Virus record (IMG/VR): IMGVR_UViG_3300013758_000001
Location: 1 to 30,227 of that record
Length of the DNA stretch: 30,227 nt
Reading direction: 5' to 3' (one strand)
From: a virus
In this document: positions 7,971 to 21,342 of the stretch, piece by piece
How positions within the stretch are numbered: the stretch's first letter is position 1
Layout of the letters: the number at the start of each line of letters is the position of its first letter
Translations under genes and position numbers: made by a program
The notes under the pieces: generated by a model
What the model was told of the DNA's origin: nothing
Seen by the model: the letters and a program-made list of their open reading frames with translations, nothing else
Database searches by the model: none

Positions 7971-8030
7971 GCCGTGCCCACGGCACCCAGCAACAGTCCA
8001 GCGAAGGAACACTCACGATGGGAACCCCTC

Positions 8031-8417
8031 ATGTGTTCTGTCTCCGGATGCCCGCGAGTCCACCTCGCTAGGTCACTCTGCTCAATGCACTACTGGCGTC
8101 TTCGTAAGCATGGCGACGTGGGCCCCGCCGAATCCCTGCATCGCCCCGGCGAGTGGCGACTGGAGCGCATCGGCTACGTCAGTCGCTACGCCAATGGCAC
8201 CAAGGAACTGCAACACCGATACGTCATGGAGCAGCACCTAGGTCGCCCACTGTGGGCGGACGAGAACGTGCACCACCTGAATGGCCAGCGCGATGACAAC
8301 CGGATCGAGAACCTCGAGCTGTGGTCGAAGATGCAGCCAGCCGGTCAGCGCGTTGAGGACAAGGTGGCGTGGGCTCGGGAGATCCTCGCTCGCTACGACG
8401 CCCTGGTCTCCGTATGA
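8031..8417 (+). CDS. HNH endonuclease with N-terminal zinc motif
   Basis: A free-standing HNH nuclease, probably a homing-type mobile gene. Starting from ATG 8031 (128 residues), Cys2, Cys7, Cys17 and His20 form a zinc motif (CSVSGC...CSMHYWR). The nuclease signature is [11 protein letters not shown] (His62), then [21 protein letters not shown] with His81-His82, Asn84 and Asn90. The open frame continues upstream to a GTG at 7974, but that start would lie at the foot of the hairpin with no ribosome binding site, so ATG 8031 is preferred. The N-terminal zinc motif is shared with the HNH gene at 14460. Its stop overlaps the glycosyltransferase start in ATGA. Confidence 0.85.
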
Positions 8418-9798: not shown

Positions 9799-11430
9799 GT
9801 GGCTCGTCTCACCTTCCCGTCTGACCGTACGGCCTTCCGTCTCCTCGGCTCCGTCTTCGAGTCTGCTGGCAGCGTCGTCGTCACGGCCTACGCGGACCTT
9901 GCTGCCACGACTCTCGCGGACGTCCAGAACGCTGACGGCAGCGCGAATGCTGCGGCCACGTTCACGATCGGCGCGGACAGCCTCGTCCCGCTGTTCCTCG
10001 GGCCGGCGGCGGGGACCTCGACGCTGTACCTCAAGGTCGGCACGGGTACGGCACAGGCTATCCGCGCGGTAGGCGGCGATGCTGCTGACGCTGCCGCTGC
10101 GGCCGCCTTGGCCTTCCTCCCGATCCCGACCGTTGTCGTCCCCGCCTGGGCCGCGACGACGGTCTACGCCAAGGGCGCGACCGTCACGCAGGGCGGGCTC
10201 TTCTGGACGAGCGCGTCCGCCCACACGTCCGGCGCGACGTTCAGCGGCACGGTCCCCGGCGGCAACTGGGTCCAGGGTGCGCCTACCTCGAGTGGCGCTA
10301 ACGCCTCTTACGTAGTGCTCAAGGAAGCACCCCTGAGCCCCTACCGCTACGGCGCGGTATGGGATGGCGTGACGGATGACACCGCTGCCATTGTTGCCAC
10401 GCTTGCCGCATTGCCCGCCTATTCAGGTGGGGTGGGTAGGGGGCAAATCAGACTCCCTCGCGGGATCGGCCAAGTTACCTCTGCCATCACGGTCCCAACC
10501 GGAGCCAACATCAAAGGCGACGGACCGCACGCGAGCATTCTGCGAGGAAACTTCGCCGGACCAATCCTCAAAACAGCGACGGATGCCACTAGCAACCCCC
10601 TCACGACCTACGTCGACCTCAAAGACATGTACGTCATCAACCAGTCCGCAAGCGCACTAGCGCGGGCTGTGGACTTCCAGCAGGTCAGCGCCGTCACCCA
10701 CACGGGCTGCCACTTCCAAACAGCCGGGGGCGTCGCCTACTACCTGATCGCCGGGTACGTCGTTGACTTCAACTCCTGCATCTTTTCCGGTGTCGGTGCC
10801 GAGCGCGGACTCGATATGGACGGCACGAAGGCAAACAACGTCGTTCGGGTGCGGGCGTCTAGTTTCCTCGACACCAAGGGTGGCATCCGGGCCGTAAACG
10901 GCACTGCGCTGACCGTGAGCGACGGCTGCCACTTCGAGGCCCTTGCCGGTGGCGCATCTGACCGACCTGGGGCTATCAGTCTTGACGCGTGGAGCGGTGG
11001 TGAACTTGCCGGGAACTACTTCGAGAGTTGCTCGTCCTCAGGCGTCATCGTTTACAACGCAGCCGGTGTCACACAGGGCTTCGCCATCGGTGAGAACTTC
11101 ATGACGAACCTTGGCTCAGCGTTTATCGACGCCAGCAACCTCCAATACTCAACGATCCGGCCGAACGTCATGATTGCGGGAGCGATTAGCCCCAATGCCA
11201 ACGGTCTGCTTGTGAACGCCGGGACCGCCCAGCATCTCATTACCAGTGCCCAGATCTACACGGGCGGCGGTGCGGGGACGACGGTAAGCGGTACCGGGAC
11301 ATCCGCTCACATCATCGACCTGAAGTTCTCGCGCACTGTGTCTGGCAGCCAGGCCTCCGGCGCGGCCCTCGCGAGCCTGCTCACGCAACTCGCCACTGCC
11401 GGTTACATCATCAACACCACCACAGCCTGA
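9799..11430 (+). CDS. Pectate-lyase-fold (beta-helix) tailspike-like or head-surface protein
   Basis: 543 residues in modules. Residues 1 to about 95 form a beta-rich, Ala/Thr-rich N-domain, possibly for virion attachment. Residues about 115-160 (WAATTVYAKGATVTQGGLFWTSASAHTSG...GGNW) look like a small carbohydrate-binding module of the family 5/12 type. From about 181, YRYGAVWDGVTDDTAAI is the signature that begins right-handed beta-helix tailspikes, and the rest has the repetitive strand-turn pattern of such helices. It probably recognises or degrades a surface glycan; catalytic residues cannot be assigned by eye. From about base 10310 codon choice becomes less G/C-biased than in the first 510 bases, matching the domain border, so the beta-helix was probably acquired separately. 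Start GTG 9799. Confidence 0.75.
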   Translation: MARLTFPSDRTAFRLLGSVFESAGSVVVTAYADLAATTLADVQNADGSANAAATFTIGADSLVPLFLGPAAGTSTLYLKVGTGTAQAIRAVGGDAADAAAAAALAFLPIPTVVVPAWAATTVYAKGATVTQGGLFWTSASAHTSGATFSGTVPGGNWVQGAPTSSGANASYVVLKEAPLSPYRYGAVWDGVTDDTAAIVATLAALPAYSGGVGRGQIRLPRGIGQVTSAITVPTGANIKGDGPHASILRGNFAGPILKTATDATSNPLTTYVDLKDMYVINQSASALARAVDFQQVSAVTHTGCHFQTAGGVAYYLIAGYVVDFNSCIFSGVGAERGLDMDGTKANNVVRVRASSFLDTKGGIRAVNGTALTVSDGCHFEALAGGASDRPGAISLDAWSGGELAGNYFESCSSSGVIVYNAAGVTQGFAIGENFMTNLGSAFIDASNLQYSTIRPNVMIAGAISPNANGLLVNAGTAQHLITSAQIYTGGGAGTTVSGTGTSAHIIDLKFSRTVSGSQASGAALASLLTQLATAGYIINTTTA

Positions 11431-12765: not shown

Positions 12766-13821
12766 ATGAGCATCGGCAGCGGCCTGTCAGGGCAGTTCGG
12801 CTACAAGCTGGAGACGACCTGGGGGACGGCCGTCACCGTCGACACCTTCCAGGTCCACGAGAGCGACAGTCTCGAGGTGGACCAGAACTGGGCCGAGAGC
12901 GCCGGGCTACAGGCCGGCGCGCAGGTCCAGCTCGCTGGCTACGCGCAGCAGACCAACCGCTCCGCGAAGGGCGGGGTCACGCTGGAGTTCGCTACGAAGA
13001 AGATGGGCCAGCTCGCCAAGGTGGCGGTCGGCTCAACGGTCACGACCCCGACGCTCATTGCCGGTAGCGCCTACAAGCAGGTCCATCAGCTCGGGACGTT
13101 CACCGGAATCGGGGTGACGGCGCAACTGGGGCGGCCGCAGACCGACGGGACCGTAAAGCCCTTCACCTACCCGGGATGCAAGGTCGCCGGGTGGGAGCTG
13201 TCCTGCTCCGAGGGTGAGCTGCTGAAGCTCAAGCTCGACCTGATCGCCAAGGACGAGACGAACCTGACCACGACCCCGGCCGGGGCGGCGCTTGCGGCGG
13301 CGGTGTACCCGACGGGCAACGAGGCGTTCACGTTCAACCAGGCTGTGTTCAAGATCGGCGGGACGGCCTCGACGGCATCCTCGGTGGTGAGCGTCGCGGG
13401 CGGTGCGGTCGTCGGTGCGACGTCGGGCGCGATCGTCAAGGGCTTCACCTTCAAGGGCACCAACCCGTTCGCCGCTGACCGGTTCGGCACGGCCACGACG
13501 GTCTCAGAGCCGATCCAGAACGCCATGACGCAAATCGAGCTGGAGCTGGACTGCGAGTTCGCCTCGCAGGCCGAGTTCTACGACGTGTTCCGGGCTGGGA
13601 CCGTGACGCCCGTGCAGATCACCTTCACTGGCGCGACGCTGATCTCGGGGACGTCGTATCCGACGCTGGACCTGATCCTGTCCGCGCCGAAGATCCTCAA
13701 GGCCCCGGTGCCGGTGAGTGGTCCTGGGATCGTGCGACAGAAGGTGTCGTTCAAGGCGTACCGCGATGGGACGAACAGCCCTTTCCAGGTCACGATCACA
13801 TCGGGTGATGTTGCGCTGTGA
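12766..13821 (+). CDS. Major tail (tube) protein
   Basis: The 351-residue tail tube subunit. It opens with GLSGQFGYKLETTWGTAVTVDTFQVHESDSLEVDQNWAES, the pattern typical of siphovirus major tail proteins (G-x-K-x-E-T-x-W-G-T), and continues with GGVTLEFATKKMG, GCKVAGWELSCSEGELLKLKLDLIAKDE and later TQIELELDCEFASQAEFYDVFRAG, all consistent with a tube fold of long beta strands. It sits directly before the tail chaperone gene, with which it overlaps by four bases. The ribosome binding site is provided by GAGCGAGG before ATG 12766. Confidence 0.9.
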   Translation: MSIGSGLSGQFGYKLETTWGTAVTVDTFQVHESDSLEVDQNWAESAGLQAGAQVQLAGYAQQTNRSAKGGVTLEFATKKMGQLAKVAVGSTVTTPTLIAGSAYKQVHQLGTFTGIGVTAQLGRPQTDGTVKPFTYPGCKVAGWELSCSEGELLKLKLDLIAKDETNLTTTPAGAALAAAVYPTGNEAFTFNQAVFKIGGTASTASSVVSVAGGAVVGATSGAIVKGFTFKGTNPFAADRFGTATTVSEPIQNAMTQIELELDCEFASQAEFYDVFRAGTVTPVQITFTGATLISGTSYPTLDLILSAPKILKAPVPVSGPGIVRQKVSFKAYRDGTNSPFQVTITSGDVAL

Positions 13822-14234
13822 CCGCTCCCAAGATGGTCGTGCGCCTCACCTTCGGAGAGGAGACCTTCGACGTCGTGAAGCTGATGGCGTCGGAGGTAGC
13901 GAAGATCAGCGCGTGGACGGGCCTGGGATCGAAGCGGGCATGGGTGCAAGCCCTGGGCGAGGAGAACATCGACGCCTTCCGCGCTGGGTACACGCTGATG
14001 AAGCAGCGCGCCGGTGAGGACATTCGCTTCTCGGACGCGGACTTTGACACGGACCTGATGAGCGTCATCATGGTCGACGTCGATGGGCGGGAGATCGAAC
14101 CTGACCTGGTCCTGGACGACGACGGGGATCCGGTGGTGGGTCCGAAGGGCCGGCCGGTGTTCGTGCAGCGCGACGGTCAGGACGCCTGGCGGTACGCCGA
14201 CGACAAGAGCCCGGTCCCCCCTACCGGCGCGTAG
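13818..14234 (+). CDS. Tail assembly chaperone, short form (gpG-like)
   Basis: The 138-residue zero-frame product of the chaperone locus, between the major tail protein and the tape measure gene. It begins at GTG 13818 in a 4-base overlap with the tail protein gene. Its N-terminal strand KMVVRLTFGEETFDVVKLMASEVAKI, acidic middle and C-terminal region match gpG-type proteins that coat the tape measure before tube assembly. Near the end, the codons GTC CCC CCT contain a C CCC CCT slippery heptamer at 14216-14222, ahead of the stop at 14232. Confidence 0.82.
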   Translation: MTAPKMVVRLTFGEETFDVVKLMASEVAKISAWTGLGSKRAWVQALGEENIDAFRAGYTLMKQRAGEDIRFSDADFDTDLMSVIMVDVDGREIEPDLVLDDDGDPVVGPKGRPVFVQRDGQDAWRYADDKSPVPPTGA

Positions 14235-14389
14235 CCGACGACGCGCTCGACTACGCCTCCTACCTGTGGGAGCTGTTCGGGGTCCGCACCTGGCATGACG
14301 GGGATATGAGCGCGCTGGACTCCGACACCTTCGAGGGCTTCGTCGCGACAGCCCGGAAGGTTCATGCCGAGCGGACCAAGAAGGGCTAG
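13818..14389 (+). CDS. Tail assembly chaperone, -1 frameshift product (gpGT-like)
   Basis: A -1 slip on CCCCCCT (14216-14222) would let ribosomes read TAC CGG CGC GTA onward from 14222 and continue to the TAG at 14387-14389, giving about 190 residues. The added part reads YRRVADDALDYASYLWELFGV...SDTFEGFVATARKVHAERTKKG. It has no start codon or ribosome binding site of its own but has coding-like composition and fills the space exactly. The LxYASYLWEL segment resembles the T domain of chaperone fusions in siphoviruses, where this frameshift is widespread. The slip site and frame relation are seen directly; its use is inferred. Confidence 0.8.
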
Positions 14390-14403
14390 AATCGACAGTA
14401 AGA

Positions 14404-14432
14404 CCCCCGCGACGACTGTCATCGTCCGGGGG
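14404..14432 (+). terminator. Hairpin after the chaperone frame
   Basis: The arm CCCCCG-C-GACGA (14404-14415) pairs with TCGTCCGGGGG (14422-14432) as 11 base pairs with a single bulged C and a 6-base loop. No T tract follows. It lies between the end of the chaperone frame and the HNH gene, so it could attenuate transcription or protect the 3' end of the upstream message. Confidence 0.45.
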
Positions 14433-14459
14433 CGTGACCAACCCGGATAAGGGGTCAGT

Positions 14460-15035
14460 ATGGCTGAGCGTACTTGCAGCGTCGAGGAATGCGACAGGCC
14501 CAGTTTCTGCAAGGGGTGGTGCTCTATGCACTACCAGCGGGCGCGGCTCTACGGTGATCCGTTGTATCGGCGCCCGAGCATTGCGGATCGCTACTGGGCG
14601 AAGGTTGATCGCTCAGGCGGCTGCGATGCGTGCTGGCCCTGGACTGCGGCAACGGACGACGCCGGCTACGGAAGGTTCGGAGTTGGCGTCGCGGTTGTTC
14701 GAGCTCATCGCTTAGGCTACGAGCTTCACTACGGTCCGCTGGGGCAACTGTATGTTTGCCACCGCTGCGACAACCCTCCGTGTCAGAACCCGCGTCACCT
14801 GTACGCCGGAACCCAGCTCGATAACGCCTCAGATCGCGAGTCACGAGGACGGGGCAACCCTGGGTATGTTCCAGGAGAGGCCAACGGAATGTCCAAGCTG
14901 TCCGAGTCGGACGTGCTGGAGATTCGAGCCCAAGCGGCGGATGGCATGACACATCGCCACCTCGCTAGGCAATACATGGTCGCCAAGACAACGATCACTG
15001 ATGTAGTGCGCCGGAGAACGTGGGCGCACATCTAA
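14460..15035 (+). CDS. HNH endonuclease with zinc motif and C-terminal HTH
   Basis: A 191-residue homing-type nuclease. Cys6, Cys11, Cys21 and His24 (CSVEEC...CSMHYQR) repeat the N-terminal zinc motif of the HNH gene at 8031. The nuclease region has RAHRLGYELHYGPL (His83), then CHRCDNPPCQNPRHLYAGTQLDNASD with Cys100, Cys103, Cys108, Asn110, His113 and Asn122. The C-terminal 45 residues (LSESDVLEIRAQAADGMTHRHLARQYMVAKTTITDVVRRRTW) form a helix-turn-helix likely to bind the target site. Start ATG follows AAGGGG. It sits between the chaperone locus and the gp10-like gene and is not needed for virion assembly by analogy. Confidence 0.87.
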   Translation: MAERTCSVEECDRPSFCKGWCSMHYQRARLYGDPLYRRPSIADRYWAKVDRSGGCDACWPWTAATDDAGYGRFGVGVAVVRAHRLGYELHYGPLGQLYVCHRCDNPPCQNPRHLYAGTQLDNASDRESRGRGNPGYVPGEANGMSKLSESDVLEIRAQAADGMTHRHLARQYMVAKTTITDVVRRRTWAHI

Positions 15036-15054
15036 CCCCCAGAGGTGGGCAGGG

Positions 15055-15513
15055 ATGTCCGACTTTCAGGTCACTGGTGGTGATCAGTTTTTTGCTCTCT
15101 CCAAAGCTCTCAAGAGCGCAGGTAGGACGGGTCTTCGCAAGCATCTCAACAAGGGGCTCAAGGAGGGCGCTAAGCCGCTGATCCCGCTGACCAGGGCTGC
15201 GGCACTGGCGCAACTCCCGAAGGGCGGCGGTCTCGCGAAGCTCGTCGCGAAGGCCCCGCAGCGGGTGCAGGTCCGGACCGGCAAGACTCCCGGGGTTCGG
15301 CTGGTGGTTGGCAAGACCGACAGCGGCGCTCGTGGTGCCAACCGAGGCGAGGTCCGTCACCCCTTCTTCGGGGACCGCACCCAGTGGTTCAACCAGGCAG
15401 TCCCGGCAGGCTGGTTCGACGACACCATTAAAGCCAACATGGACAAGGTTCTCCCTGCCCTCGAGCAGGCCATGCACGACGTCATCGACGAGATCGTGAA
15501 GGGGGCGAAGTAG
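15055..15513 (+). CDS. HK97 gp10-like neck/tail-completion protein
   Basis: A 152-residue basic helical protein: GGDQFFALSKALKSAGRTGLRKHLNKGLKEGAKPLIPLTRAAAL, then LPKGGGLAKLVAKAPQRVQVRTGKTPGVRLVVGK, RHPFFGDRTQWFNQAVPAGWFDDTIKANMDKVLPALEQAMHDVIDEIVK. The combination of a long basic N-terminal helix, an LP-x-GGGLA turn, a VR beta region, an RHP-x-FG motif and a final helix resembles proteins annotated as gp10-like or minor tail proteins in actinobacterial phages. It is flanked on both sides by endonuclease genes. Gp10-like genes more often precede the major tail gene, so position slightly weakens the name. Confidence 0.7.
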   Translation: MSDFQVTGGDQFFALSKALKSAGRTGLRKHLNKGLKEGAKPLIPLTRAAALAQLPKGGGLAKLVAKAPQRVQVRTGKTPGVRLVVGKTDSGARGANRGEVRHPFFGDRTQWFNQAVPAGWFDDTIKANMDKVLPALEQAMHDVIDEIVKGAK

Positions 15514-15552
15514 ACCGTGGCGTGTCGCATCGCAGAGTTCCCCCTGACCTTT

Positions 15553-15565
15553 TAGAATCTGGAAA
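15553..15565 (+). promoter_or_regulatory. Candidate -10 element for a leaderless endonuclease transcript
   Basis: TAGAAT at 15553-15558 fits the actinobacterial TANNNT -10 pattern and ends six bases before the A of the ATG at 15565, the spacing expected for a transcript that starts at the start codon. The gene has no ribosome binding site (only CTGGAA precedes it). No -35 is recognisable. This would give the mobile nuclease gene its own expression inside the late operon. Confidence 0.4.
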
Positions 15566-16416
15566 TGAAGCGTTGCGGAGGGTGCAAACAAGACCTTGCG
15601 GTCGAGTGTTTCTACCGGGCGTCGAAGAGCGGCGACGGGCTACAGAGCCGCTGCATGGAATGCCAGAAGACGTCGCTAAGGCTTCGTGTCGCGGCAAAAC
15701 GGCTAGCGACAGTGGCGTCCCTATCGGATCCCACGGGGAAGCTCTGCCCTCGTTGCCGCGAAGTCTTACCGTGGGATCGGTTCCACAAGAACCGAAGCAA
15801 CGGCGACGAGAGGCAGGCATATTGCAAGGACTGCTCGAACGAGATCCGCAGGGAGTACGAGCACCGGAATGCGGAAGTCATCGCCCTGCGGCGCGCCGAG
15901 CGGTTAGCCAGACAGCCCGCCGAAGGAGCGACAAAGGAATGCCGGAAGTGCGGCACTACTAAGCCGATGCTCAGTTTCTACGCCCACCGGACCACGAAAG
16001 ACAGTCGTGCGAACTACTGCATGGAGTGCCAGAAGGCCGCTTCTCGTCAGTGGAGCCGCGATAACGCCGACAAGGTCAAAGCTACCAACGACGCCCACAG
16101 ACTGGCGAATCCCGAGAAACGCAAGCGCGATCACCGCCAGTACTGGCTCAAGCTATACGGACTTGACCAGGCGCAGTACGAGGCCCTGCTAGCCGAGCAG
16201 GGCGGTACCTGCGCTATCTGCGAGCGCCCCGAGCGGTACGTCGACAAGCGCACAGGCGAGCTGCGCAAGCTCTCTGTCGATCATGACCACAAGACCAACC
16301 TCGTGAGAGGGCTTCTCTGCGGCCACTGCAATCGCGGTATTGGCCAGTTCGACGACAACCCACTGGTACTGGCTAGAGCCAGCACCTACCTATCTCGGGG
16401 AATCGCCCTGGGGTAG
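15565..16416 (+). CDS. Endonuclease VII-like HNH nuclease with three N-terminal zinc ribbons
   Basis: 283 residues. The C-terminal part matches the recombination endonuclease VII family, whose T4 member cuts branched DNA: YGLDQAQYEALLAEQGGTCAIC (Cys216, Cys219), LSVDHDHKT (Asp239-His240-Asp241-His242), GLLCGHCNRGIG (Cys252, Cys255, Asn256). Ahead of it stand three similar C-x2-C...C-x2-C zinc-ribbon repeats, at residues 4-33, 61-90 and 126-155, each with an F-Y/H-x-x-x pattern between the pairs and probably used for DNA targeting. It lies between the gp10-like gene and the tape measure, so it may be a mobile nuclease rather than a resolvase for packaging. Base use is less G/C-biased than in its neighbours. 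A 20-bp palindrome spans its stop codon. Confidence 0.88.
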   Translation: MKRCGGCKQDLAVECFYRASKSGDGLQSRCMECQKTSLRLRVAAKRLATVASLSDPTGKLCPRCREVLPWDRFHKNRSNGDERQAYCKDCSNEIRREYEHRNAEVIALRRAERLARQPAEGATKECRKCGTTKPMLSFYAHRTTKDSRANYCMECQKAASRQWSRDNADKVKATNDAHRLANPEKRKRDHRQYWLKLYGLDQAQYEALLAEQGGTCAICERPERYVDKRTGELRKLSVDHDHKTNLVRGLLCGHCNRGIGQFDDNPLVLARASTYLSRGIALG

Positions 16417-16426
16417 CTACCCCAGG
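16407..16426. repeat. 20-bp perfect palindrome at the endonuclease VII stop
   Basis: CCTGGGGTAG is followed directly by its reverse complement CTACCCCAGG. The palindrome spans the TAG stop (16414-16416), and its right end supplies the first half of the AGGAGG ribosome binding site (16424-16429) of the tape measure gene. As RNA it could form an 8-bp stem with an AGCT loop that partly hides that site. Confidence 0.7.
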
Positions 16427-16437
16427 AGGTGATGTCC

Positions 16438-18064
16438 GTGGCCGCTGTGTCCCTCGCATTTTGACATCCTCGCGCGAGACCAAGCCAGCAAGGCGTTCAA
16501 CGACGTCGGCCACGCGGCCGAGAAGACCGGGAAGCACGGCATCACCCTGGGCAAGATCATGGCCGGTGCAGTTGCCGGCGGCATCGGCGTGCTGGGCGCG
16601 GTCCTCAAGGTCGGCTTCGGTGAGGTGAAGGACTATCAGGTCGGCCTGGCTGACCTCGACAACGTCCTGAAGACAACCGGGAACGTCGCCGGGGTGTCGA
16701 GCAAGGGGCTTGAGGGCTTGGCATCGAGCATCCAGTCCTACTCCGGCCAGACGGACGACTCGATCGTGAAGAGCGAAGGCCTGCTCCTGACCTTCACGAA
16801 CATCCACAACGCCGCAGGCAAGAACAACGACATCTTCACGCAGGCCACGAAGCTGACCGCGGACATGGCGGCGAAGTTCGGCGGAGAGGCGAGCGACTCT
16901 GCCATCAAGCTCGGCAAGGCCCTCAACGACCCGAGCAAGGGCCTCACGGCCCTGACGAAGATCGGAGTGTCATTCACCGATGGGCAGAAGGCATCCATCA
17001 AGGCGATGCAGGCGCACGGCGACGTAGCCGGGGCACAGAAGGTCATCCTTGCCGAGCTGTCCAAGGAGGTCGGCGGATCGGCCGCCGCCTACGGTGGGAC
17101 CTTGGCCGGTCAGGTCGACAAGGCGAAGCGATCGTTTGAGGACACCTCCCAGTCGTTGGTAACGGCGCTGCTCCCAGTCCTGACGAGCGTCATGGACTTC
17201 ATCACAACCAAGCTCGCCCCGGCGTTCCAGTCGTTGACGGCCTTTGTCGTCGCGCACAAGGCGATCTTGGGGCCGCTCGCTGCGGTCCTTGGGACGGTGG
17301 CGGGTGTGATCTGGCTGGTGACGACTGCCTCGAAGGCGTGGGCAGTGGCGCAGGCCGCGCTAAACATCGTAATGGCGCTCAACCCGATTGCCCTTGTTGT
17401 CATCGCCATCATCGCGCTGGGTGCCGCGCTCGTCCTGGCCTACAAGCATTCCGAGACGTTCCGGACCATCGTGCAAGCCGCGTTCGGGGCGATCTCGGCA
17501 GCGGCGTCGTTCATGTGGAACGACGTACTGAAGCCCACGTTCAGATTCCTGGTCGACGCTTTCCTGCTGGTCGCTGGGACGATCGTGCATGGTGCGGCCT
17601 CCGCCTTCGGTTGGGTGCCGGGGGTCGGCGGGAAGCTGAAAAGCGCCGCTAAAGCGTTCGATGCCTTCCGTGACGACGTGAACAACAGTCTCGCGGGAAT
17701 CAACGACAAGACCGTCGCGGTTCATGTCGTCACGTCCGGGGTCAACGGGGTCAACAGCGCCGTCGGCATCGCCAGCAAGCAGGACCGATTGGCGCTCGTC
17801 GGCCACAACGCCCAGGGCACCGACAGTTGGAGCGGCGGGCCGTCGTGGGTCGGAGAGAATGGCCCCGAGATCCTGGACCTGCCGCGCGGGTCTCGGGTCA
17901 TCCCGAATCACAAGCTTGCCAGCATCGGCGGTGGCGGTGGCGGTGGGACTGTTATCAACATCACCGTGCAGGGCAACGTCACCTCGGAACGGAACCTGCT
18001 CGACGCGATCCGTACCGGCCTGCTCCAGCAGTCCCGTCGCACGGGCGGGCTGGGTCTCGCCTGA
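16438..18064 (+). CDS. Tape measure protein, reading frame shifted near its start
   Basis: Tape measure sets tail length. The long frame (first ATG 16559, 501 residues) has the family's helical N-terminus, repeated Ala/Gly-rich segments, hydrophobic stretches around LGPLAAVLGTVAGVIWLV and NPIALVVIAIIALGAALVLAY, and the typical end (WVGENGPEILDLPRGSRVIPNHK...). However, the true N-terminus lies upstream. From GTG 16438 (8 bases after AGGAGG; ATG 16432 also possible) the frame encodes VAAVSLAF and hits TGA at 16462. Skipping one base at TTTT (16459-16462) joins it to DILARDQASKAFNDVGHAAEKTG, a classic tape-measure start. The joined product is about 541 residues. Either a one-base indel or +1 recoding explains this. 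Confidence 0.85.
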
Positions 18065-20007
18065 TGTCCTACCCAGCGCTCACTGTCGAGGTCGCCTTCG
18101 TCGCCGATCCTTACGGGACGCTGACGTGGACGGACGTCACCGCGTACTGGCTTGGGTGTGACTTCCAGCGTGGGCGGAACTACGAGCTGGGCAAGACCGA
18201 GGCCGGCACGCTGAACGTGAGCCTGGAGAACCTCGACGGCCAGTTCGACCCGACGAACGCCAGCAGCCCCTACTTCCCGTATGTCCTGCCGTACCGGCCG
18301 ATCCGGGTCCGGGCGACGTGGCTCACCGTCACCTACGACCTGTGGCGCGGCTACGTCGAGCGGTGGCCGCAGAAGTGGTCGACGGGTGGCAACTACGGCA
18401 CGGTTGACATCACGGCGGTGGATGGGTTCAAGACCGTCCTGGGGAAGAAGTACGGGACACGTCTTTACGATCAGGTGCAGTCCCTGTCGCCGCTCGGTTA
18501 CTCCCGGTTCGACGGTCTGGCGGTCGGCGCAAGCATCGCCGCCGGCACGGGCGGCACGGGTGGTGCTACTGACGCGGGGCAGGGCACACAGGTCGGCACC
18601 AATACTGTCTTTTTCACCAGCGTCTCCCAGACGGTCGACTTTGACCGCAATGGCCGAGCCTCGCTCGTCGCGGGCTCACCAGACACCGCCCTGGAATACT
18701 CCTGCCCAGCCGCGACAAGCACGACACTGTTCGTCCATGGTCCGATCCTTCGCGGAACCTCTGAGATGTGGATCAAACCGAACTTCACGGGAGCCACGAG
18801 TACGTACCCGATGACCACGGGTTATGGCCCTCCCGCCATCCTGTCCGGCAGTGGGACGAACAACACTGTTGGTGGCAGCGTCGGACTTGGCTACACCTCC
18901 GGCACGAACAACTACATCCTGTCCACTCTCGACCTGAACGCCGGGCTCCCCGCGTGGGTGGACACGGGCGTCCGCATCGCCCGGAACGTCACCTCCCATG
19001 TCGTCATCGTCTCCTCGAACCTCAGCACCGAACGGGCGACTCTCATCTACATCAACGGAGCCCTCGTCTACACAACGACTATCGCTGGCAACATCACCTG
19101 CACCAACCCGTCGGGAATCAACGGCTACATCAAGCTGGGGATCAACGCTGTCGGCTCCACTACGGGCTTCGCGGTTGGTGACACGTTCACCGTCGACGAA
19201 CTGTCGGTCTACAGCGGGAACCAACTCAACGCTACCGAGATCGCCCTGCACTATCAGCTCGGGCGCGGCAACACGTATGCGGAGTTCCCCGCCGAGACGA
19301 CCTCGCAGCGAGTGTCAGACGTCCTCGATACCGCCCTGTGGCCTACGAGCGCACGGGTTTCCACGGGTGGCGGGAGTGGTCTGCTCGCCACCGGAAGTGC
19401 GAAGGGCCGAACAGCGCTGGACCTGATCCAGGAGGCCACCGATGCGGAGCTGGGGAATGTCTTCATCAACGGGGCGGGCTCGTTCGTCTTCCAGAACCGA
19501 GCCACTCGCAACAGCCCCTCATCGGCGGCGACCTTCGGGGACGGTGCCGGGGAGATTCCCTACCAGGGAGACATCCGCATCGACTTCGACGACACCTACA
19601 TCTACAACGCTCTCAGCGTCACCCAGTCGGGTAGCAGCCCGGCAGTGACGTCAGTCGCGGGTGACTCGGCGTCAGAGAACTCCTACGGCCCGCGTGACTT
19701 GCCCCTCACCGTTCCGCTGTCAGCCTCGGCCGACCTGACCGGGCAGGCCAATACGCTGCTCGCCCGATATAAGGACCCGCATGCGAGGGTCCCGCAGGTC
19801 ACTCTCGAAGGCCGCGGGAACACTGACAACTTCGCCCAGATGCTGTCCCGTGAGATCGGGGATCTCGTCACCATCAACCGCAGGCCCCTTGGTGCGACCG
19901 CAATCAGCATCGGCTGCTTCATCGACGGCATCAAGCACCACATCACGCCGACGGAGTGGACGACAACGTTCATGCTCACCCCGCAGTATCCGAACGCGAC
20001 CTACTAG
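18064..20007 (+). CDS. Large minor tail protein with LamG-like insert
   Basis: 647 residues from ATG 18064, which overlaps the tape measure stop (TGATG). The N-terminal 120 residues (YPALTVEVAFVADPYGTLTWTDVTAYW...GRNYELGKTEAGTLNVSLENLDGQFDPTN...YFPYVLPYRPIRVRATW) match the beta-rich start of actinophage minor tail proteins at the tail tip. Residues about 215-400 form a jelly-roll of the LamG/concanavalin type (SEMWIKPNF, YINGALVYTTTI, FTVDELSVYSGNQLNATEIALHYQLG), suggesting glycan or cell-wall binding. The last 230 residues return to tail-protein patterns (RVSDVLDTALWP, ALDLIQEATDAELGNVFINGAGSFVFQNR, IRIDFDDTYIYNALSVTQSG). It probably forms the distal tail platform. The exact number of copies and partners is unknown. 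Confidence 0.82.
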   Translation: MSYPALTVEVAFVADPYGTLTWTDVTAYWLGCDFQRGRNYELGKTEAGTLNVSLENLDGQFDPTNASSPYFPYVLPYRPIRVRATWLTVTYDLWRGYVERWPQKWSTGGNYGTVDITAVDGFKTVLGKKYGTRLYDQVQSLSPLGYSRFDGLAVGASIAAGTGGTGGATDAGQGTQVGTNTVFFTSVSQTVDFDRNGRASLVAGSPDTALEYSCPAATSTTLFVHGPILRGTSEMWIKPNFTGATSTYPMTTGYGPPAILSGSGTNNTVGGSVGLGYTSGTNNYILSTLDLNAGLPAWVDTGVRIARNVTSHVVIVSSNLSTERATLIYINGALVYTTTIAGNITCTNPSGINGYIKLGINAVGSTTGFAVGDTFTVDELSVYSGNQLNATEIALHYQLGRGNTYAEFPAETTSQRVSDVLDTALWPTSARVSTGGGSGLLATGSAKGRTALDLIQEATDAELGNVFINGAGSFVFQNRATRNSPSSAATFGDGAGEIPYQGDIRIDFDDTYIYNALSVTQSGSSPAVTSVAGDSASENSYGPRDLPLTVPLSASADLTGQANTLLARYKDPHARVPQVTLEGRGNTDNFAQMLSREIGDLVTINRRPLGATAISIGCFIDGIKHHITPTEWTTTFMLTPQYPNATY

Positions 20008-20347: not shown

Positions 20348-20665
20348 ATGACAGTGCCACGCGGGGACGTCCCCACCATGGCTGAGTTGATGTGGCGGAT
20401 CACTGAGGTAGCCACTCAGATGACCGCGCTCGCGGCGGATCTCAAGACGACGTACAGCCGCAACGACGTCCTCGACGGTCGTCTCGCCGTCATCAACGGC
20501 CGCATCGACGGCATCCTGACCGCGCAGCACCAGCTCCGCACCGACGCGGACGCGATCGTGTCGCAGCAACTGAGCAACCGCCGCATGTGGATCAGCGGCC
20601 TCGCCTTCCCGATCATCGTCGCCGCCATCACTCTGTACCTCACCGTGGCAGGAGCCCATCCGTGA
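20348..20665 (+). CDS. Coiled-coil protein with C-terminal membrane segment (lysis region)
   Basis: A 105-residue protein. Residues 12-75 are helical with heptad-like spacing (MWRITEVATQMTALAADLKTTYSRNDVLDGRLAVINGRIDGIL), and residues about 80-102 (MWISGLAFPIIVAAITLYLTVAG) form one membrane helix. The layout of a soluble coiled coil followed by a single C-terminal helix resembles XhlA-type or accessory holin proteins in lysis cassettes. Its stop overlaps the GTG of the collagen-like gene, so the two membrane proteins are probably co-translated. A role in lysis timing or as a membrane-anchored partner is inference from position and topology. Confidence 0.6.
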   Translation: MTVPRGDVPTMAELMWRITEVATQMTALAADLKTTYSRNDVLDGRLAVINGRIDGILTAQHQLRTDADAIVSQQLSNRRMWISGLAFPIIVAAITLYLTVAGAHP

Positions 20666-21342
20666 AGGTTCCCCTCCGCTTGGACCGCAAGGACGCCGTC
20701 GCTGCGTTCTTGGTCCTGCTCGTCGCCATCGCCGTCGCGGTCGTCTTCGTCGGGCTGCTCGGCCTCCGCGCGCGCGTCGACAGCGAATCGGTTCGCTCGG
20801 GTGCGCTCCAAACAAACCTGGACCGCTCGCAGGCTGCCGTCACCGCCCTGGCGCAGCAGGTCAAGGGTCTCGGCGGGACTCCCGTCGCGGTGCCGTCGCT
20901 CGTCCCCGTCGCTGGGCCGCAAGGCCTGCCGGGGCTGAGCATCATCGGGCGCGATGGCAGGACGGGCGCGGTCGGCCTCACGGGTCCGCAAGGCTTCCGT
21001 GGCGCGAGCGGCCAGGCTGGCACCGTGGGCGCTGTCGGCTCGACTGGCAGCGACGGCAATGGCGGAGCCACGGGCGCGACCGGAGCGACAGGCACTGACG
21101 GCACGCCGGGTGGCCCTGGCGCTCCCGGCTCGGACGGAGCCGTAGGACCTGCCGGACCCACGGGAGCCACCGGACCCACGGGGGCGACGGGACCCGCTGG
21201 ACCGCAAGGACCGCAAGGACCGGCTGGGACTGCTGGCACGTGCGACCCGTCGCTCGGCTACGTCTGCGCCGCGCCGCCGCCTCCCAGCCCGACGCCCACC
21301 CCGAGTCCCAACCCAACGCCCACGGCGGCGGCATCGCCGTAA
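20662..21342 (+). CDS. Membrane-anchored collagen-like protein
   Basis: 226 residues from GTG 20662. Residues about 9-33 (DAVAAFLVLLVAIAVAVVFVGLLGL) form one membrane helix, followed by a short coiled coil. A collagen-like domain then starts with three Gly-X-Y triplets, is interrupted by II, and continues with 32 unbroken triplets rich in GAT, GPQ and GPT. A Cys-containing CDPSLGYVC loop and a Pro/Thr/Ser tail (PPPPSPTPTPSPNPTPT) end the protein. Collagen-like repeats in phages usually belong to fibres and trimerise. Here the membrane helix and the lysis-gene position suggest a cell-envelope protein, so it could be a lysis spacer, a trimeric spanin-like factor or a displaced fibre. Function unknown. 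Confidence 0.75.
   Translation: MKVPLRLDRKDAVAAFLVLLVAIAVAVVFVGLLGLRARVDSESVRSGALQTNLDRSQAAVTALAQQVKGLGGTPVAVPSLVPVAGPQGLPGLSIIGRDGRTGAVGLTGPQGFRGASGQAGTVGAVGSTGSDGNGGATGATGATGTDGTPGGPGAPGSDGAVGPAGPTGATGPTGATGPAGPQGPQGPAGTAGTCDPSLGYVCAAPPPPSPTPTPSPNPTPTAAASP

Follow-up and report, generated by a model that had tools for sequence, protein, structure and literature searches.

Why does the tape measure protein (TMP) gene of this virus appear to be broken a few codons after its start? We analyzed an IMG/VR virus record of 30,227 bases (66.5% G+C; hereafter the window), in which AGGAGG at 16424-16429 precedes two in-frame start codons, ATG 16432 and GTG 16438, whose frame encodes VAAVSLAF and stops at TGA 16462-16464 (next base C), with four T residues at 16459-16462. 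A direct read of the sequence confirmed the coordinates that the first-pass annotation had given for this break and for these starts. The break is real in the sequence, and its structure can be interpreted through the following features:

15055..15513, + strand: tail gene, which we take to be gp10-like (phrog_11991, function unknown in PHROGs, E 2.8e-20)
15517..15555, + strand: putative left orphan TMP start; GTG, VACRIAEFPLTF, with TAG directly after the TTT Phe codon (mini-ORF score 8.48)
15550..15553, + strand: TTTT run at the left junction (from the T-run count)
15565..16416, + strand: endonuclease VII/HNH gene of 283 aa, the presumed inserted element (PF02945)
16407..16426, + strand: perfect 20-nt palindrome, a possible coupling hairpin (from sequence and folding)
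16424..16433, + strand: extended Shine-Dalgarno AGGAGGTGAT, its GGAGG ending 8 nt 5' of GTG 16438
16438..16464, + strand: right, putatively substitute TMP start; GTG, VAAVSLAF, stop TGA (best mini-ORF of 253, score 11.17)
16459..16465, + strand: TTTTGAC at the frame junction, candidate +1 slip site (from sequence and the T-run count)
16463..18064, + strand: TMP frame, DILARDQAS... (Pfam, PHROG, codon-usage path)

The frame downstream of the break is the tape measure, as the first-pass annotation had proposed. It is stop-free from 16463 to 18061 (533 aa), with TGA at 18062-18064; Pfam TMP_2 matches it with E 3.5e-7 and 30.6 bits, only just passing the cut-off of 30.2, and 16 of its 20 PHROG matches carry the name tail length tape measure (the best-scoring, phrog_971, is labelled endolysin). 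It also lies among tail genes, with the tail tube (12766-13821) upstream and the tail fibre (20587-21342) downstream. For the short frame that precedes it, the extended Shine-Dalgarno was assigned as a complement of the anti-Shine-Dalgarno, and the usual rule for spacing between Shine-Dalgarno and start makes GTG 16438 likelier than ATG 16432, since GGAGG lies 8 nt from the former and 2 nt from the latter. By eye, no well-placed Shine-Dalgarno precedes CTG 16445 in the TMP frame. TTTTGA occurs once on the + strand of the window, and runs of at least four T occur there five times, two of them being the two junctions listed above.

Several other observations concern the neighboring head and tail genes. 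The sequence CCCCCCT (14216-14222) stands near the end of ORF 13818-14234, which is named chaperone-like by position and has no Pfam or PHROG family match; the -1 frame past it, open as far as TAG 14387-14389, is phage-like, so that this looks like the usual tail assembly chaperone -1 shift. In the head-tail region, the matches of 9799-11430 to beta-helix, pectate-lyase-like and CBM_5_12 families are weak and all fall below the Pfam cut-off, while the tail fibre gene has collagen-like profile matches and odd G+C by codon position. The protein of 18064-20004 had no phage match and one distant locus (L118).

The first-pass annotation described the break itself and missed two elements upstream of it: a second orphan start, 0.9 kb upstream of the right one, and the HNH gene in between. 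In both orphan starts, the stop directly follows a TTT Phe codon within TTTT (15550-15553 and 16459-16462), the left stop being TAG 15553-15555. The two strands of the window hold 253 mini-ORFs that begin with ATG or GTG and run 6-15 codons to a stop; each was scored against a position profile made up of the final four residues up to Phe and of residue 2. This profile was built from the TMP N-termini of 22 relatives (14, 5 and 3 from three sets of loci), picked by eye and excluding the window. The right start (11.17) and the left start (8.48) rank first and second, followed by two extended forms of the right start (6.56), and the best unrelated mini-ORF reaches 2.38. Under a looser control that does not require a stop, 3 of 9,211 open stretches reach the left score, and both starts may be among them. 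The relatives themselves score 6.3-13.8 with a profile that includes them, 20/22 lying above the left start and 13 or 14/22 above the right one (rounded values). At the residue level, the left PLTF resembles LTF|ALLARD of L005, L010 and L011 and LTF|DLLARD of L091, and the right VAAVSLAF resembles VTSLSLAF|DILARD of L114. Across 19 window genes, the Phe codon is TTT in 17 of 200 cases. Paired TTTT/TTT Phe junctions of this kind fit an insertion at the Phe codon, or a joining within it.

Relatives give the layout from which the window departs. In 22/22 of them, the TMP frame opens with ATG or GTG and continues unbroken past the aligned Phe codon (L021 has Trp there), which reads TTC in 18, TTT in 3 and TGG in 1; the next residue is Asp in 17 relatives, Ala in three (L005, L010 and L011), Arg in L007 and Asn in L021. 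A 23rd relative, L283 (VFDIIAKDRAS), is also unbroken, and its upstream gene was inspected as well; it enters the count of 23 and stands outside the profile of 22. An uninvaded homologous site was thus found in 23/23 relatives, all of them distant. Pattern matches judged by eye not to be TMP starts were discarded (21/35 in one set, 25/28 in another). We drew on the best 80 of 243 TMP relatives, among which ten match from query residue 1-3; L005, L006 (the same as L097), L007, L010, L011 and L021 were used, and L008, L013, L015 and L016 were left out because their N-termini look different. Among whole-genome loci, only L283 has a similar N-terminus, L273, L274 and L277-L282 having a different one or a start that was not read; L275 and L276 lie outside the counts.

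A similar upstream gene is found directly 5' of the TMP start in 12/19 inspected relatives (likeness judged by eye), sharing HPxxG and then often WFD or YFD, also by eye, with a gap of 13-33 nt between the upstream stop and the Phe codon and no gene in between; the upstream ORF differs in the remaining 7/19. In the window, the distance from the stop of the gp10-like gene to the Phe codon of the left start is 36 nt. Homologue searches with the gp10-like protein gave no match.

All of these relatives are distant—the top-ranked viral locus, L003, reaches 44% in its best segment—and so they show the usual layout, not the own ancestor of this phage, and a recent change in the window is compatible with 23/23 unbroken frames. 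TMP searches of viral and bacterial contigs and of sets of 4, 391, 394, 298 and 12 whole genomes returned only distant kin or none, and exact patterns found no near copies in viral contigs, where records very near the window may be absent. These searches gave no close relative, either carrying or lacking the insert, so the empty site is one that we infer. The matches lean toward actinobacteria: 102 of the 153 matching phage records are Microbacterium, Gordonia or Mycobacterium phages (20 are Vibrio), and the two best of 46 bacterial-contig loci are labelled Mycobacterium and Nocardioides, with many others from Clostridia and elsewhere. The best plasmid match (9e-33, a better E-value than those of the phage matches listed) comes from Devosia, an alphaproteobacterium. 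Since Devosia, Clostridia and Vibrio matches stand beside the actinobacterial ones, an actinobacterial host is likewise something we infer.

With two TMP-like starts flanking an endonuclease gene and 23/23 relatives unbroken, a homing-type insertion into the start of the TMP gene is probable. Judging from the sequence, we put at roughly 0.65 the probability that a homing-type endonuclease gene was inserted there, with a substitute start placed downstream and the extra T being a scar, an indel or a base error. Under this explanation, a predicted free-standing homing element—an endonuclease VII-type HNH gene—would have entered the TMP gene between Phe and Asp, stranding the old start (GTG 15517, ...PLTF) upstream, where it would now end at TAG. 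Ribosomes arriving from the gp10-like gene may initiate at GTG 15517, terminate at TAG 15553-15555 and go on to the endonuclease ATG, and translation of the endonuclease could open the hairpin over the next Shine-Dalgarno. The downstream edge would carry the substitute start, GTG 16438 (...SLAF), which is TMP-like, has its own strong Shine-Dalgarno and perhaps originates from a donor phage. The TTTT at both edges would mark the junction. The right edge has one T beyond a continuous reading, most likely as a join scar, a later indel or a base error; with the extra base right at the edge of the proposed insertion, a scar left by joining or subsequent slippage in the T run is attractive. The right start would yield eight residues before UGA C, such that TMP synthesis would hinge on the extra T, and, as the sequence is written, full-length TMP would either depend on infrequent +1 slippage at UUU UGA C or be absent altogether. 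Either the TMP gene is damaged, or it is misread in the data, or its product is made by ribosome slippage.

The content of the presumed insert is consistent with this explanation. PF02945 matches 15565-16416 with E 1.6e-21 and 76.4 bits (cut-off 23.6), and this ORF accounts for 852 nt of the ~904-nt insert, with ~50 nt outside it; its ATG lies 9 nt 3' of the left-start TAG, with no clear Shine-Dalgarno by eye. A codon-usage path that was trained on the clear genes of the window and allows for six frames plus a background state omits 15511-16462 and starts the TMP frame exactly at 16463. That stretch is the longest of seven left out; the second-longest, 14387-15138, holds another HNH gene and the first gp10-like bases. 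The path also omits five other stretches and misassigns the strand of part of the portal gene, and because of such coarse errors, omission from it is by itself no proof of foreign DNA. Two further HNH genes were seen in the window, one (HNH_3) at 14460-15035 between the chaperone-like and gp10-like genes and omitted from the phage-like path, the other at 7974-8417, which may be cut short, its best PHROG match running from position 98 to 218 of a 219-position profile.

At the right edge, the palindrome contains the endonuclease stop TAG (16414-16416) and extends with its 3' arm over the first AGG of the Shine-Dalgarno. The local hairpin folds at -19.8 kcal/mol, with 9/200 shuffles equally stable; support for it is modest, as 46/200 shuffles are equally stable for a longer fold around it. 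Related endonucleases are common, with 1,779 matching phage records and 108 viral stretches. In the best 80 of these 108 loci, a scan of up to 3 kb per side, run without a positive control, found no TMP-like stretch, and the element was therefore not seen elsewhere at a TMP gene.

The alternatives differ mainly in what they make of the extra T and of the DNA between the two starts. A base-calling or assembly error, with the true frame continuous from GTG 16438 as a working substitute start, is a realistic possibility, well short of even odds, and is compatible with the insertion; base error and mutation were the alternatives to recoding that the first-pass annotation had named. The strong Shine-Dalgarno and TMP-like N-terminus at the right start speak for it, as do the origin of the sequence in an IMG/VR virus record and the coarse codon-usage path, in which no second broken gene of a recognized family was noticed. 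It would require, however, that the extra base fall exactly at the insertion edge in a T run only four long, and indels in short-read consensus sequences are rare in four-base runs.

A programmed +1 frameshift, also compatible with the insertion, strikes us as rather unlikely: ribosomes starting at GTG 16438 would pause at UGA C, and tRNA-Phe would slip from UUU to UUU, sending a low fraction into the TMP frame. The slip geometry described in the first-pass annotation (UUU UGA C in a weak stop context, with tRNA-Phe re-pairing) is correct by sequence, a strong Shine-Dalgarno lies at good spacing before GTG 16438, and the TMP frame is otherwise stop-free with phage-like codon usage. TMP is a low-copy virion protein, with few copies per tail, a need that suits a low slip fraction. 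Against this stand the 23/23 relatives without a shift, so that recoding gains no support from comparison, distant as these relatives are. Conservation of TTT TGA C, which had been suggested as a check, goes the same way: the shift is shared by 0/23, and L251, L262 and L269 read TTTTGAC in frame, its first T ending the previous codon. We also agree with the first-pass annotation that a stimulator is lacking, as by eye no Shine-Dalgarno-like sequence stands 3 nt before the slip codon, where GTGTCCCTCGCA precedes TTT. The prfB +1 frameshift combines, as does the window, a slippery codon, a UGA C stop and a directly continuing downstream frame; prfB has CUU, whereas the window has UUU, no upstream Shine-Dalgarno-like stimulator seen, and a site unshared by the relatives read (prfB as given in the available text of PMC12421855). 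The same source reports the prfB site in 0/2,658 Actinomycetota genomes and a shifting efficiency of about 6% at this site in M. smegmatis, poor shifting that counts against recoding in the window insofar as its presumed host is actinobacterial.

A more elaborate variant is doubtful: a homing element that brings a replacement start, complete with ribosome binding site, N-terminus and +1 slip site, would set a low, slip-controlled TMP dose and make TMP expression dependent on the element.

Splicing of a group I-type intron with its endonuclease, which would connect the left start with the TMP frame and make the right start a coincidence, appears improbable. There are precedents in the spliced introns of the ICP1 TMP gene (available text of PMC10448857) and the group I introns of mycobacteriophage capsid and tail genes (available text of PMC3706429), and 17 stop-free in-frame joins end the exon in U and the intron in G. 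Among these, 15552|16457 gives LTF-HF-DILARD, adding only His-Phe; plain LTF-DILARD comes from 0/17, as that join puts T at the intron end. No Rfam intron family matched the window at gathering or at E up to 10, a search that divergent introns may escape. The ~50 nt outside the endonuclease ORF would be too little for a core unless it overlapped the ORF, and chance would have to account for the right mini-ORF being the best TMP-like start of the window. Less probable still is a TMP start at ATG 16559 that renders the upstream pieces irrelevant: this is the first ATG, GTG or TTG of the TMP frame, but no Shine-Dalgarno is seen upstream by eye, the residues DILARDQAS... kept in relatives would be lost, and the codon-usage path includes the frame from 16463. 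Ribosomal hopping from TTT 15550 to TTT 16460 was rejected because the ~0.9-kb gap holds an entire gene. In the T4 gene 60 hop, a stop follows the take-off codon and the landing codon is matched.

Known systems resemble the preferred explanation, a homing-type insertion into the TMP start, in part (each as described in the available text of the source). TMP has been called a frequently HEG-interrupted gene, and ICP1 has, as we propose for the window, a homing endonuclease gene within its TMP gene (PMC10448857). In ICP1, TMP is spliced from four exons with HNH-3 HEGs; the window, by contrast, has an endonuclease VII type, no detected intron and a second TMP-like start downstream. The nrdA gene of Aeh1 is split by mobE and T4 gene 60 by mobA, free-standing HNH genes that divide a coding region as proposed for the window, and several such HEGs are without a clear ribosome binding site, their translation being thought to occur via coupling or scanning (PMC2988022). 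In Aeh1 nrdA and T4 gene 60, both halves are coding and must reassemble (PMC2988022), whereas the upstream piece in the window is 12 codons and would be replaced by a substitute start one base out of frame. ShiLan-type actinophage elements share an HNH ORF that nearly fills the insert, between two codons, with no intron or intein; there, the host gene is open through the insert (PMC11855218), while the presumed insert in the window is closed by TAG 15553-15555, TAG 16414-16416 and TGA 16462-16464 before the restart. Among the literature matches listed (titles and abstract openings), we found no +1 shift in a TMP gene and no HEG-supplied substitute start, weak evidence of absence given this partial coverage.

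The locus would thus offer a snapshot of a free-standing endonuclease gene invading an essential gene near its start, with the same Phe codon at the end of both the stranded old start and the supplied substitute start. If the replacement-start reading were true, a selfish element would have created a recoded join, with a parallel in the history of T4 mobA and gene 60. If the offset is real and tolerated, the locus would provide a phage gene recoded by +1 shifting against a GC-rich and probably actinobacterial background, where such shifting is thought to be inefficient.
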